A stretch of DNA of 64,000 nt from contig NZ_ARYJ01000001.1 of the NCBI RefSeq assembly GCF_000685215.1, forward strand, positions 310,001-374,000. Direction: 5' to 3'. This stretch comes from Hyphomonas jannaschiana VP2. GTDB lineage: Bacteria; Pseudomonadota; Alphaproteobacteria; Caulobacterales; Hyphomonadaceae. The notes below the pieces were generated by a model. It made no database searches, was not told where the DNA came from, and was given only the letters and a program-made list of their open reading frames with translations. Shown here one piece after another: positions 10,013 to 13,587 of the stretch (its first letter is position 1; every line of letters begins with the position of its first letter). Position numbers and translations under genes: made by a program.

Positions 10013-10735
10013 CTAGATTTTTTCTATTAATTCCTTGGGTTTAATTGCTGCACCTGCGAACAAAACCCCAAGACTCGCCTTCGCTTCAGCTGACCATGCG
10101 GCACCCGGCGAAATGGCGAAGACGGCCTCACTTTTCAGGATCAGCCCGTCCGTCAGGATTTTCAGCCCGTTGGCCTTCAGCGTCGCCCCGGTGGAGGTAA
10201 TGTCGACGATCACATCGGCCGATCCCGTGGTCGGCGCGGCCTCTGTCGCCCCGGCGCTTTCGACCAGCCGGTATTCCCCGACAGACCGGGCCGCGAAGAA
10301 GCGGCGGGTCAGGCGCATATATTTGGTCGCGACCCGCAGGCGCCGGTGATGCGCCTTGCGGAACGCCGCGCCTGCCGCTTCCAGGTCCGACATGGTATCG
10401 ACATCGACCCAGGCCTGCGGCACGGCGACGATCACATCCGCCCCGCCAAAGCCCAGCCGTTTCACGACCTCGAAATCGCTCTCCCCGACCGGGGCGAGGT
10501 CGTGCAGCAGGTCTTCACCGGTCACCCCGGCATGCAGGCTGCCATCGACGAGGCCCTGCGCAATCTCCCGCGCGGAGAGAAGCCGCATCTCGACATCGCC
10601 AAGGCCTGCGATCTCTGCCTGATAACCGCGTTCTCCACCGATCTGCGTAACCGGGAAGCCGGCCGAGGCCAGCCATTCTTCAGATTTTTCCTTCAGCCGT
10701 CCCTTGGACGGGATCGCCAGTGACAGACGGGTCAT
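10013..10735 (-). CDS. hisG: ATP phosphoribosyltransferase, short-form catalytic subunit
   Basis: HisG joins ATP and PRPP in the first step of histidine synthesis. At 240 residues it is the short form, which lacks the C-terminal regulatory domain and needs HisZ. Visible motifs are LAIPSKGRL at the N-terminus, HAGVTGEDLLHDL in the middle, and the PRPP-binding loop region VIVDITSTGATLKANGL near residue 175-190. Its ATG overlaps the hisZ stop by 4 bp, so the two subunits are translationally coupled. It is the last gene of the hisS-hisZ-hisG operon controlled by the leader at 13510-13548. Confidence 0.96.
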   Translation of the reverse strand: MTRLSLAIPSKGRLKEKSEEWLASAGFPVTQIGGERGYQAEIAGLGDVEMRLLSAREIAQGLVDGSLHAGVTGEDLLHDLAPVGESDFEVVKRLGFGGADVIVAVPQAWVDVDTMSDLEAAGAAFRKAHHRRLRVATKYMRLTRRFFAARSVGEYRLVESAGATEAAPTTGSADVIVDITSTGATLKANGLKILTDGLILKSEAVFAISPGAAWSAEAKASLGVLFAGAAIKPKELIEKI

Positions 10736-11862
10736 GCGCCCCTCCCTTTCGCACGCAGCACACGGTCGGGCCTGACCACGCCGCCGATCGCGGTCGCGTT
10801 CGCCTTGCCGTTCGAGAGGCCGGAGACGAGGCCATCATAACGCCCGCCGGAGGCAATCGGCCGGCTTTCCGCCAGATTGGCGCCCAGCGTCTCGAACAGG
10901 AAGCCGTCATAATAGGTGAACCGCCGTCCGAAGCCGGACCGGAAGCGGCAGATGGCCTTCACTTCCGGCAGAAGCTCGCGGATCAGTTCCATTCGCCGCG
11001 CCACACGGTCAATCGCACTGGAGGTACGTGGCAGGCTGTATTTCACAGCGATTGCGTCCAGCTGGTCTGCGGCTTCGGCTGCGGTGCAGTTGACCGCTGC
11101 CAGCGCCCCGATCACTTCGCGCACCTTGTCCGGCACACCGCCCGCGGCCAGCGCCGCCGCCCGTGCGCGAAGGCCCGCAATGATTTCCGGAACGCTCCGT
11201 GTTCCAATCAGCGGAATGCCGCGCTCGGCCAGCGCCGCGCGGAAGGCCGTTTCCGCCTCTTCCGGCGTCGCCGCCTCCAGCGTTGGCACAAGGTCTGCCT
11301 CAATCGGTGCGGGGGACGCTTCGACCAGGGCCCGCACGCCGCCTTCCTGACGGAAGGCCCGCTTCAGCAGGTCTGCCGTCACGCGCGGCAGGCCGAGTGC
11401 ATCGATGAAGGCCGGAAAAATGGCAAGATCACCCGTGGCAATCGCGACTGGAACAACACCGCAATCGCGGACAGCCTCATGCACCAGCGCGAAGGCCTCG
11501 GCATCTTCGGTGGGATCGGATTCCCGGCCAAACCGCTCAAAGCCGACCTGGGTGAACTCCATCGGGTCCCCATCGGCCGCCGGCAGACGGAAGGCTTCTG
11601 CGGCATAACAATATGCTTTCGGGCCATTGGTGCCGCTGGCGAGGCGTTCGGCTTCCAGCCCCGCCACGGGCAGGGTCAGGTCCGGCCGCATGACCATTTC
11701 ATTGCCGCGATGATCCGTGAACACGCAAAGCCGTGCGCGCACCGCCTCGCCCGACAGTTCCAGCGGAATATCGGATGGCAGGATATAGGCCGGGTTCACC
11801 GGCTCGGCGCCGGAGGCTTCGAACCGGGACCGGGCCGCTTTCACGACAGCCGCATAGGTCAT
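10732..11862 (-). CDS. hisZ: ATP phosphoribosyltransferase regulatory subunit
   Basis: HisZ is a paralogue of the histidyl-tRNA synthetase catalytic core that has lost aminoacylation and serves as the regulatory subunit for short HisG. The 376-residue protein shows the class-II-like segments MRPDLTLPVAGLEA and YYDGFLFETLG, and the end ASGGRYDGLVSGLSNG-type motif 3. It overlaps both hisS (upstream) and hisG (downstream) by 4 bp. Together the three genes put HisRS, its degenerate paralogue and HisG on one message. Confidence 0.95.
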   Translation of the reverse strand: MTYAAVVKAARSRFEASGAEPVNPAYILPSDIPLELSGEAVRARLCVFTDHRGNEMVMRPDLTLPVAGLEAERLASGTNGPKAYCYAAEAFRLPAADGDPMEFTQVGFERFGRESDPTEDAEAFALVHEAVRDCGVVPVAIATGDLAIFPAFIDALGLPRVTADLLKRAFRQEGGVRALVEASPAPIEADLVPTLEAATPEEAETAFRAALAERGIPLIGTRSVPEIIAGLRARAAALAAGGVPDKVREVIGALAAVNCTAAEAADQLDAIAVKYSLPRTSSAIDRVARRMELIRELLPEVKAICRFRSGFGRRFTYYDGFLFETLGANLAESRPIASGGRYDGLVSGLSNGKANATAIGGVVRPDRVLRAKGRGA

Positions 11863-13340
11863 GCCTGGGCCTCGACGATGCGGCGGATCGCTTCAACCAT
11901 TTCGGCGCGCGGCACTTCTATCTGGCCCGGGCGGGCCTCGCGGTATTCTTCATTGGACTTGATGGCTTTGGCTTTGAGGGCCCCCATTTCAAGGTCCTTG
12001 ATGGTGACCGTGCCCTTGGCCATTTCGTCCTCGCCGACGATCACGACGGCCGGCGCGTTACGGCGGTCAGCATATTTCATCTGCGGCCGCATGCCGGAAC
12101 CGCCCATATAGGCTTCAGCACGGATGCCTGCCCGGCGCAGGTCGGTTGCGATGGAAAGTGCCGTGGACGGATTTTCCTTGTCGAGGTTCAGCACCACGAC
12201 CGGCCCGTCCAGCTTGCCGGTCTCACCCATGATCTGAAGGGCAGACGCGAGGCGTGAGATGCCGATGGAGAAGCCTGTCGCCGGCACCGTCTCGCCGGTG
12301 AAGCGCGCAACGAGGTCGTCATAACGCCCGCCGCCGCCGATGGAGCCGATGCGATAGGTCTTGCCGTCTTCGCCCGTCACCTCGCGCAGCAGCTCGGCCT
12401 CATAGACGGGGCCAGTATAGTATTCGAGACCGCGCACGACGGATGGGTCTATCACGACATCGCCCTCCGGCGCGCCCAGCGCATCAAGGGCCAGCGCGAT
12501 GGCTTCCAGTTCGGCAAGCCCGGCCTTGCCCTCTTCCGTGCCGCCTGTGGCTTTGGAGAGGTTCGCCAGTGTTTCGGCCCGCGTCTCTGCACCAGCTTCC
12601 GCGAAGGCCAGAACCGTCTTCACCTTGTCCGCATCCAGCCCGGCGCCCTTGGTGAAGTCGCCGCTCTCGTCCATGCGGCCCTTGCCCAGCAGATCGGCCA
12701 CACCGGACGATCCAAGACGGTCGAGCTTGTCGAGCGCGCGCAGGATGGCGAGGCGGGTCTCGGCGCTCGTCGCCCCTACCCCGTCCAGCACGCCATTCAG
12801 CAGGCGGCGCGTGTTCACCCGGATCACGAACTCGCCGGTCTCCATGCCCACGGCGCGGAGCGCTTCGGCGCCCATGGCGATCATCTCGGCATCGGCGTGG
12901 AAGCCCGGCGCGCCGACCGAGTCGGCATCGCACTGCCAGAATTCGCGGAAACGGCCCGGCCCCGGCTTCTCATTGCGCCAGACAGGCCCGGCGGCGTAGC
13001 GGCGGAACGGCTTGCCGAGCGACTGGCCAGCCTCCGCCACGAAGCGGGCCAGCGGCGCGGTCAGGTCGTAACGCAGCGAGATCCACTGCTCGTCATCATC
13101 CTGAAGCGAGAAGACCCCGGCATTCGGCCGGTCGTCGTCGGGAAGGAATTTGCCCAGCGCATCGGCATATTCGAAGGCGCCGGTGTCGAGCGCCTCGAAG
13201 CCCCATTGGCGGTAAATCGCGGTGACCTTGCCGACCAGCTCCGCCTGGGCATGGATCAGGCCCTCACGCTTATCGGGAAAGCCGCGCGGCTTGCGGGCAA
13301 GATCTTTACCGGAGAGAGGCTGGCTGTCTTTGTCGCTCAT
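11859..13340 (-). CDS. hisS: histidyl-tRNA synthetase
   Basis: This class-II synthetase charges tRNA-His in the cytosol. The 493-residue protein is longer than the approximately 425-residue enterobacterial form. Motif 2 reads GPVWRNEKPGPGRFREFWQ, a form resembling the eukaryotic type and that of an alphaproteobacterial clade known for altered tRNA-His recognition; the histidine-binding GLEYYTGPVYEAEL and motif 3 GGGRYDDLVARFTGE are intact. A C-terminal anticodon-binding domain (IATDLRRAGIRAEAYMGG) follows. The ATG at 13340 was chosen because the N-terminus and length fit best; the long upstream frame crosses the leader region. It is the first full gene after the His leader peptide. Confidence 0.96.
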   Translation of the reverse strand: MSDKDSQPLSGKDLARKPRGFPDKREGLIHAQAELVGKVTAIYRQWGFEALDTGAFEYADALGKFLPDDDRPNAGVFSLQDDDEQWISLRYDLTAPLARFVAEAGQSLGKPFRRYAAGPVWRNEKPGPGRFREFWQCDADSVGAPGFHADAEMIAMGAEALRAVGMETGEFVIRVNTRRLLNGVLDGVGATSAETRLAILRALDKLDRLGSSGVADLLGKGRMDESGDFTKGAGLDADKVKTVLAFAEAGAETRAETLANLSKATGGTEEGKAGLAELEAIALALDALGAPEGDVVIDPSVVRGLEYYTGPVYEAELLREVTGEDGKTYRIGSIGGGGRYDDLVARFTGETVPATGFSIGISRLASALQIMGETGKLDGPVVVLNLDKENPSTALSIATDLRRAGIRAEAYMGGSGMRPQMKYADRRNAPAVVIVGEDEMAKGTVTIKDLEMGALKAKAIKSNEEYREARPGQIEVPRAEMVEAIRRIVEAQA

Positions 13341-13472
13341 GATCGCTCTTAGTCCTGTTTGCGCACCGCATAGTCGGTGCTGGTCCGGATTGGAAGGCGA
13401 CACGTCAACATCCGGCACGCCCCGGTGGTGGCCTGCCTCGTCTGGTCTGGTTCTTGGGAGAACACTTTAGCA

Positions 13473-13500
13473 GAGGCGCAGCCGGACCGGTTCGCGCCTC
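13473..13500 (-). terminator. his leader hairpin B (candidate attenuator)
   Basis: On the minus strand GAGGCGC pairs with GCGCCTC across a 14-base loop, shortly after the leader-peptide stop. The following sequence TGCTAAAGTGTTCTC is only mildly T-rich, so a classic intrinsic terminator is not proven. Its 5' arm overlaps the 3' arm of hairpin A (13493-13509), so both cannot form at once. Confidence 0.5.
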
Positions 13501-13509
13501 GTCGGCGCG
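13493..13509 (-). promoter_or_regulatory. his leader hairpin A (competes with hairpin B)
   Basis: On the minus strand CGCGCC-GACGA-GGCGCG forms a perfect 6-bp stem immediately after the TGA of the His leader. It shares bases 13493-13500 with hairpin B, giving the mutually exclusive structures expected of ribosome-sensing attenuation. Confidence 0.55.
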
Positions 13510-13548
13510 TCACGAATGATGGTGATGGTGGTGCAGTGCAGTGTTCAT
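13510..13548 (-). CDS. hisL: histidine operon leader peptide (12 aa, six His codons)
   Basis: On the minus strand an ATG at 13548 opens a 12-codon frame reading MNTALHHHHHHS and then TGA. Six consecutive His codons (CAC, CAC, CAT, CAC, CAT, CAT) directly upstream of the hisS-hisZ-hisG operon are the hallmark of a his attenuator leader. No ribosome-binding site precedes the ATG; the predicted -10 (13559-13564) puts the transcript start only a few bases before it, so translation is probably leaderless, as described for the rhizobial trp leader. Two competing hairpins follow at once. The frame is too short for ordinary gene finding. Confidence 0.85.
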   Translation of the reverse strand: MNTALHHHHHHS

Positions 13549-13558
13549 TACGAAAAGG

Positions 13559-13587
13559 CCGATACGGGGGCGGCCCGGCAAAGTCAA
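13559..13587 (-). promoter_or_regulatory. candidate promoter of the his operon
   Basis: On the minus strand TTGACT (13582-13587) and TATCGG (13559-13564) are separated by 17 bp. Transcription would start near 13552, about 4 bases before the leader ATG. The site falls just past the stop of the thioesterase gene (13596), in a position that fits an independent his promoter. Confidence 0.55.

Follow-up and report, generated by a model that had tools for sequence, protein, structure and literature searches.

In attenuators of the E. coli his type, a run of His codons within a short leader is followed by mutually exclusive hairpins, with the histidine genes downstream. This his operon attenuator, known from Escherichia coli and further gammaproteobacteria, is described in general terms, alongside His leaders in Firmicutes, in a published account (PMC9413887). 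For Bacillus, a second source places His leaders ahead of hisS*, a hisS paralogue, and of hisZ (PMC2965389). Three further papers report a leader ahead of trpS, together with an ilv attenuator, in Caulobacter (PMC4117421) and the leaderless trpL (rnTrpL) of Sinorhizobium meliloti (PMC7298713; PMC10117765). Searches of the open literature yielded no description of a hisS leader for the Alphaproteobacteria or Caulobacterales, a scope that leaves absence from print uncertain.

The window analyzed here, a stretch of DNA of 64,000 nucleotides, carries a His-codon leader on its minus strand, ahead of hisS, hisZ, and hisG. In the direction of transcription, a −35 element TTGACT (13582..13587) is followed after 17 bases by a −10-like element TATCGG (13559..13564) and, 10 bases further on, by the leader frame ATGAACACTGCACTGCACCACCATCACCATCATTCGTGA (13548–13510), which starts with an ATG at 13548 and encodes MNTALHHHHHHS and a stop, 12 codons including six consecutive His codons; the RNA start is predicted near 13552, i.e. 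4 bases 5′ of the ATG. Directly after the stop codon, CGCGCCGACGAGGCGCG (13509–13493) forms the P2 hairpin, CGCGCC/GGCGCG, the presumed antiterminator (−12.6 kcal/mol). The presumed terminator stem P3, GAGGCGC/GCGCCTC (13473..13500; −13.2 kcal/mol over 28 bases), overlaps P2 at 13500–13493, making the two mutually exclusive. All of the parts that the earlier note had described, i.e. the promoter, the frame, and the two hairpins, were found in place when re-read in the window. The interval that it had called complete (13473–13587), however, leaves out one arm of a third putative stem, P1, in which GAACAC, bases 3–8 of the leader (13541..13546), is complementary to GTGTTC (13460..13465), located behind P3 at the place where a U-tract would be expected. 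The hisS gene (histidine–tRNA ligase; 11859..13340, minus strand; TIGR00442, 371 bits, cut-off 286.75) has its ATG 169 bases from the leader stop codon and is the sole match above the HisRS family cut-off in a search of the genome. It overlaps by 4 bases with hisZ (ATP phosphoribosyltransferase regulatory subunit; 10732..11862, minus strand), for which the best matches are HisZ models, all below their curated cut-offs, and hisZ in turn overlaps by 4 bases with hisG (ATP phosphoribosyltransferase; 10013..10735, minus strand; TIGR00070, 163 bits, cut-off 75.75).

The locus is similar to the E. coli his attenuator with respect to the His run, the exclusive hairpins, and the histidine genes behind them. 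In contrast to that system, the window's leader has no Rfam match, is predicted to be near-leaderless, has a stem that includes the leader start, heads hisS-hisZ-hisG, and lacks a strong U-tract. The Bacillus leaders, compared by description, also place His codons before a HisRS-family gene and hisZ, but they belong to Firmicutes and to a hisS paralogue, whereas here the only full HisRS gene, followed by hisZ-hisG, is preceded by a leader in an alphaproteobacterium. According to the S. meliloti papers, trpL is likewise an alphaproteobacterial attenuator with a leader frame that begins at the RNA 5′ end, but with Trp codons and trpE. The proposal that control of HisRS is in itself a novelty was not supported, as the Bacillus His leaders (PMC2965389) and the Caulobacter trpS leader (PMC4117421) are already described. 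The principle of His-codon attenuation is known; its near-leaderless form with switchable hairpins seems to be undescribed.

Runs of five His codons occur at three distinct places (four overlapping matches) in the 3.64-Mb genome, with none for a reversed-pattern control, and the leader His run exceeds chance expectation. A strict sigma-70 scan did not report the leader promoter, a terminator scan gave no terminator at the leader, the fold energy of the leader is ordinary (z = −1.4; 20 of 200 shuffles equally or more stable), and the Rfam covariance models yielded three matches, all weak, at E values of up to 10, none of which is a leader or T-box family or overlaps the leader. The case for the leader therefore depends on comparison. 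A T-box identity was dropped because the Rfam search returned no T-box match. A second His leader, on contig C3, was also dropped, the five-His run there being the tail of an 88-residue frame; a weak match (E 4e-4) to R1, the covariance model of the leader, coincides with this place. The third five-CAY run (L003; G000:C1:495590–495604, minus strand, outside the window), which was partly read, lies opposite the start of an other-strand frame reading MVVMVAGLMALNALAIDIMLPALNQ.

Of 105 family genomes searched for HisRS, 99 had a match, and up to ∼0.9 kb of upstream sequence was taken from each of these (only 283 bases for L038). Scoring as a leader any frame upstream of hisS that begins with ATG, is no longer than 30 codons, and has at least three His within 7 codons, we found a short His-rich leader ahead of hisS in 64 of the 99 loci: 35 of 40 in g1, the genus to which the window belongs and which includes Hyphomonas sp. 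CY54-11-8 (99% HisRS identity to the window), 27 of 28 in g3, which includes Henriciella aquimarina, both loci of g9, and none of 29 in six other genera. At the 28th g3 locus, L071, the stems are kept and the frame has decayed to MSYGPHPHCA, as judged by eye. Loss of the leader in close relatives, which the earlier note had said would count against it, is seen at five of the 40 g1 loci, one of these on a stretch of 283 bases, against the 35 that keep it. R1, which was trained on a set that includes the window, recovers it at E ∼1e-27; at E ≤ 0.01 the model finds 66 of the 105 family genomes, a few of these through weak matches. Outside the family, only weak matches (best 8e-4) were found among 398 genomes of the order, and a search of 385 genomes of the class gave no match at E ≤ 1e-4 outside the genus. 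Judged by sequence comparison, the six-His leader ahead of the hisS operon is real and conserved.

TTGAC is located 35–39 nt upstream of the leader ATG in 64/64 leader loci (37 nt in 38 loci, 36 in 12, 39 in seven, 38 in four, and 35 in three), and inspection by eye shows a TAT-like hexamer at the corresponding −10 place in most relatives. This fixed spacing implies that the near-leaderless start is conserved: with a −10 element 17 bases on and an RNA start 7 bases later, 0–4 bases would precede the ATG. The conserved promoter spacing is strong evidence for a near-leaderless leader RNA with a predicted 5′ end and thereby favors the start proposed earlier; if true, the locus would illustrate attenuation on an RNA without room for a Shine-Dalgarno sequence and without a strong U-tract. 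Counted ungapped back from the stop, codons 3–8 encode His in 50, 54, 63, 60, 59, and 56 of the 64 leaders, respectively, and CAC and CAT (181 and 164 codons over the 64 leaders) exchange under the retained His. Since His is kept while its codons swap, which is the mark of a translated frame, we infer that the leader is translated.

The leader was also compared with gene order. Among the best 80 named HisRS loci, a set that overlaps with the 99 family loci, 18 have leaders of the window's type and 18 have leaders of a Caulobacter type. A leader is present in 36 of the 58 loci in which hisZ lies no more than 300 bases from hisS versus none of the 22 others (kinship not corrected), which seems to tie it to the biosynthetic genes, not to hisS alone. 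Fisher values for this contrast are overstated, since they count related loci as independent. The 36 leader loci were compiled by hand; L128, under which the decayed L071 appears among the named records, was scored as having no leader. His-containing frames in L148, L150, L158, and L164 were put down to chance on inspection by eye, as was a second frame in each of L109 and L134.

The three stems were compared in an alignment (A1) of 53 of the 64 leaders, from which nine near-duplicates were removed and L073 and L074 were omitted because the P1 arm could not be anchored. Paired cells make up 99.7% for P2, 98.1% for P3, and 98.0% for P1. The covariation scores of the stems were reached by 0 of 500 shuffles, a control that kinship can beat, and, in the run with P1 and P3, pairs changed on both sides numbered two against a shuffle mean of 2.2, i.e. 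no excess. The 3′ arm of P1 lies 3–9 bases behind P3 and, in the 62 loci where it is anchored, six pairs are kept in 59 (GAACAC/GTGTTC in 38, GAAAAC/GTTTTC in 10, and wobble variants in 11). The exceptions are L072 and L075, with four pairs, and L020, where P1 is broken; L073 has no anchored arm, and L074 has an alternative match, GAGCA/TGCTC. In many relatives the match includes the whole ATG (ATGAACAC/GTGTTCAT). GAAAAC/GTTTTC represents an in-step change of both arms in one clade, and the nine P1 cells with co-changes all belong to a single clade, implying that P1 covariation reflects few events. P1 is likely, though not proven, to be a genuine stem. GAAC occurs within 30 bases after GTGTTC in 49/49 loci of the GTGTTC type versus 0/13 others, and may form a fourth, competing stem.

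These comparisons (the leader at 64/99 family loci, with conserved exclusive stems) favor His-codon attenuation ahead of hisS-hisZ-hisG, as had been suggested from the single sequence, and we consider it very probable that the leader is a ribosome-mediated attenuator reading the supply of charged tRNA-His. A His-codon leader frame, exclusive hairpins behind the run, and hisS, hisZ, and hisG directly downstream are all present; an intrinsic terminator with a U-tract was found neither by the terminator scan nor in the 8 bases behind P3, and we therefore describe the function as attenuator-like and the leader as a variant, not a standard member. In the proposed mechanism, transcription would start 0–4 nt ahead of the ATG, and a ribosome would load onto the nearly bare 5′ end. 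With His-tRNA scarce, the ribosome would stall at the His run and, taking general values for ribosome footprint sizes, cover approximately the first 30 nt, blocking P1; P2, just after the stop codon, would fold first and prevent P3, and RNA polymerase would continue into hisS-hisZ-hisG. With His-tRNA plentiful, a ribosome at the stop codon would cover the 5′ arm of P2 such that P3 would form, and the freed RNA 5′ end would form P1 with GTGTTC, downstream of P3, so that the structure would be closed and the start region masked; with P3 and P1 both formed, transcription would stop early. A second promoter past the attenuator would keep the only HisRS supplied at a basal level. The start site, translation, termination, the role of P1, and the activity of the second promoter are predictions from sequence. 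The leader likely serves to raise histidine-tRNA synthetase and the histidine-making genes in a marine bacterium when charged tRNA-His is short.

Folding calculations place a constraint on this mechanism. When bases 1–30 are barred to mimic a ribosome on the first His codon, P3 exceeds 0.5 at equilibrium in 84% of 62 loci and P2 in 1.6%; as P3 wins despite the stalled ribosome, the switch must depend on the order of folding. When transcripts are truncated short of a complete P3, the P2 hairpin forms in 63/64 loci without a ribosome and in 62/64 with a stalled one. When 25 extra bases were allowed for six loci with a stalled ribosome, P2 appeared in L005, L047, and L074 and was absent in the other three. 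P1 forms in 62/62 loci at equilibrium with no ribosome or with one at the stop codon. The runs were set up such that P2 is unavailable under a ribosome at the stop codon, and P1 under a ribosome on the first His codon. The switch works if folding order decides, as attenuation assumes. The possibility that P3 hides the hisS start was dropped, the two being 132 bases apart.

The termination model is weakest in its lack of a strong U-tract. In the leader loci, the 8 bases behind P3 contain 1–5 T with a mode of 2, in agreement with the lack of a strong T-tract pointed out earlier. Behind P1, the next 8 bases are rich in pyrimidines (0.68 versus 0.49 background) and possibly constitute a weak tract, from which we infer a terminator that is closed by P1 and ends in a pyrimidine-rich tail. 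Alternatively, the same His sensor could act through termination assisted by Rho or NusG, or through RNA decay, in place of an intrinsic terminator, with the untranslated stretch past the leader becoming exposed when the ribosome leaves at the stop codon. The missing U-tract behind P3 and the 169 bases between the leader stop codon and hisS would suit such an output, which is a fair rival; however, Rho alone would not need P2 and P3 to be retained as exclusive stems, and the possible weak tract behind P1 also speaks against it, so that we judge this output unlikely. That the His run and hairpins arose by chance and have no regulatory role would agree with the ordinary fold energy and the empty strict scans, but is extremely improbable given the conservation in 64/99 family loci, the fixed promoter spacing, and the codon turnover.

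The contribution of P1 is open to two further readings. P1 could act mainly on translation, hiding the start codon region and thereby turning the leader off once the RNA is complete, and having no role in termination. Its inclusion of the leader start, in many relatives of the whole ATG, and its formation in every anchored locus when uncovered by a ribosome are consistent with such a lock, for which a 3′ arm at the expected U-tract place would nevertheless be superfluous; we regard a purely translational role as possible but doubtful. On the other hand, P1 might not be a working stem at all: codons 2–3 (AAC AC/AAA AC) could be kept for the start and GTGTTC/GTTTTC for termination, with their complementarity an inherited coincidence. 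A-rich starts favor leaderless translation, which would account for the first of these, and the lack of any excess of both-side changes over shuffles, together with a main co-change confined to one clade, points the same way. Conversely, six pairs are kept in 59/62 loci, in 11 of them via wobble changes, and L074 has a different match, leaving coincidence a conceivable explanation, but one we would not favor.

An extension of the attenuator reading, which we put forward tentatively and do not hold to be probable, is that the terminator is closed by the transcript's own first bases, such that an initiating or stalled ribosome on the 5′ end would gate termination directly, and that in some Henriciella relatives, where the leader has Gln codons and the operon includes a tRNA-Gln gene, sensing has widened to Gln. 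ARAGORN places a tRNA-Gln(TTG) gene between the leader and hisS in 7/99 loci (L047, L051, L053, L058, L065, L072, and L075). Gln codons are located beside the His run in all seven leaders with this gene and in two of the 57 without it, L070, where the tRNA has decayed, and L076, with one CAG; tRNA remnants were seen by eye at L069 and L070. Sister rows of the four QQ leaders have PK or HH at that place and those of the g9 pair have HH at the Gln place, several of the tree forks being weakly supported. Some close relatives without the tRNA-Gln gene have lost the Gln codons, but L070, which is next to L047, retains QQ. One genome (G012) carries another tRNA-Gln(TTG) elsewhere, implying that the hisS-linked copy may be a spare. 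The association of Gln codons with the tRNA-Gln gene is suggestive, as seen in two or three lineages only.

A different His leader lies ahead of hisS in Caulobacter, Phenylobacterium, and related bacteria (18 named loci, L131–L163). These leaders, e.g. MTRTPHHHGHHHHPTSPRGIGRVRTL, mostly have a −10-like CTATA ∼10 bases upstream of the ATG; they resemble the window's in preceding hisS-hisZ-hisG and in the −10-like element near the ATG, but have a longer frame and other hairpins, in which GGAT/ATCC is changed to GGAC/GTCC in five of 17. A covariance model (R2) was built from an alignment (A2) of 17 of the 18, L137 being left out. At E ≤ 0.001, R2 does not match the window's hisS leader, and it finds 52 of the 398 order genomes, some through weak matches; 46 of the 52 belong to a single other family (f2). 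R1 gives no strong match in the order beyond the window's family. Seven R2 matches were read, of which one is a hisS leader (L271), one lies ahead of another gene, and five lie ahead of asd-like genes. One of these five is, outside the window, a Thr/Ile-rich leader, MLKTQIIITTKTTRLCGTLRVRAI, ahead of asd in the window's genome (L265; G000:C1:519794–519939, minus strand), where the asd assignment was confirmed (TIGR01296, 421 bits, cut-off 324). Similar leaders precede asd-like genes in three f2 genomes (L267, L268, and L270), as if one attenuator core had exchanged its sensor codons. The R2 match L269 (G352:C1:3539391–3539540, minus strand), ahead of an unnamed gene, comprises a short frame, MTAFATLMHMTCRTAQAGSVRDVVR, a GC-rich hairpin, and a six-T run.

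The control over hisS that the earlier note had called complete is qualified by a conserved promoter-like site, TTCCAA-N17-TATGCG (13367..13395, minus strand), located between the attenuator and hisS. The pattern is kept in 49/64 leader loci and 23/35 hisS loci without a leader (shuffle means 1.4 and 1.0, respectively), and a stretch far upstream contains it in one and none of these loci, respectively. As the pattern was defined after looking and the loci are related, this evidence is good but not independent. The site is probably a basal promoter, as predicted from its conservation, and its position past the attenuator, with its presence also in relatives without a leader, implies that attenuator control is probably partial and points to a basal level of hisS expression outside the attenuator's reach. 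If such a promoter guards the basal level, an essential synthetase can sit under a switch. Around the second −10-like site is a hairpin, GCACCG-ACTATG-CGGTGC (window 13380–13363, minus strand), the arms of which vary in relatives and, as judged by eye, are often complementary, e.g. GCTTCG/CGAAGC and GCATCG/CGGTGC.
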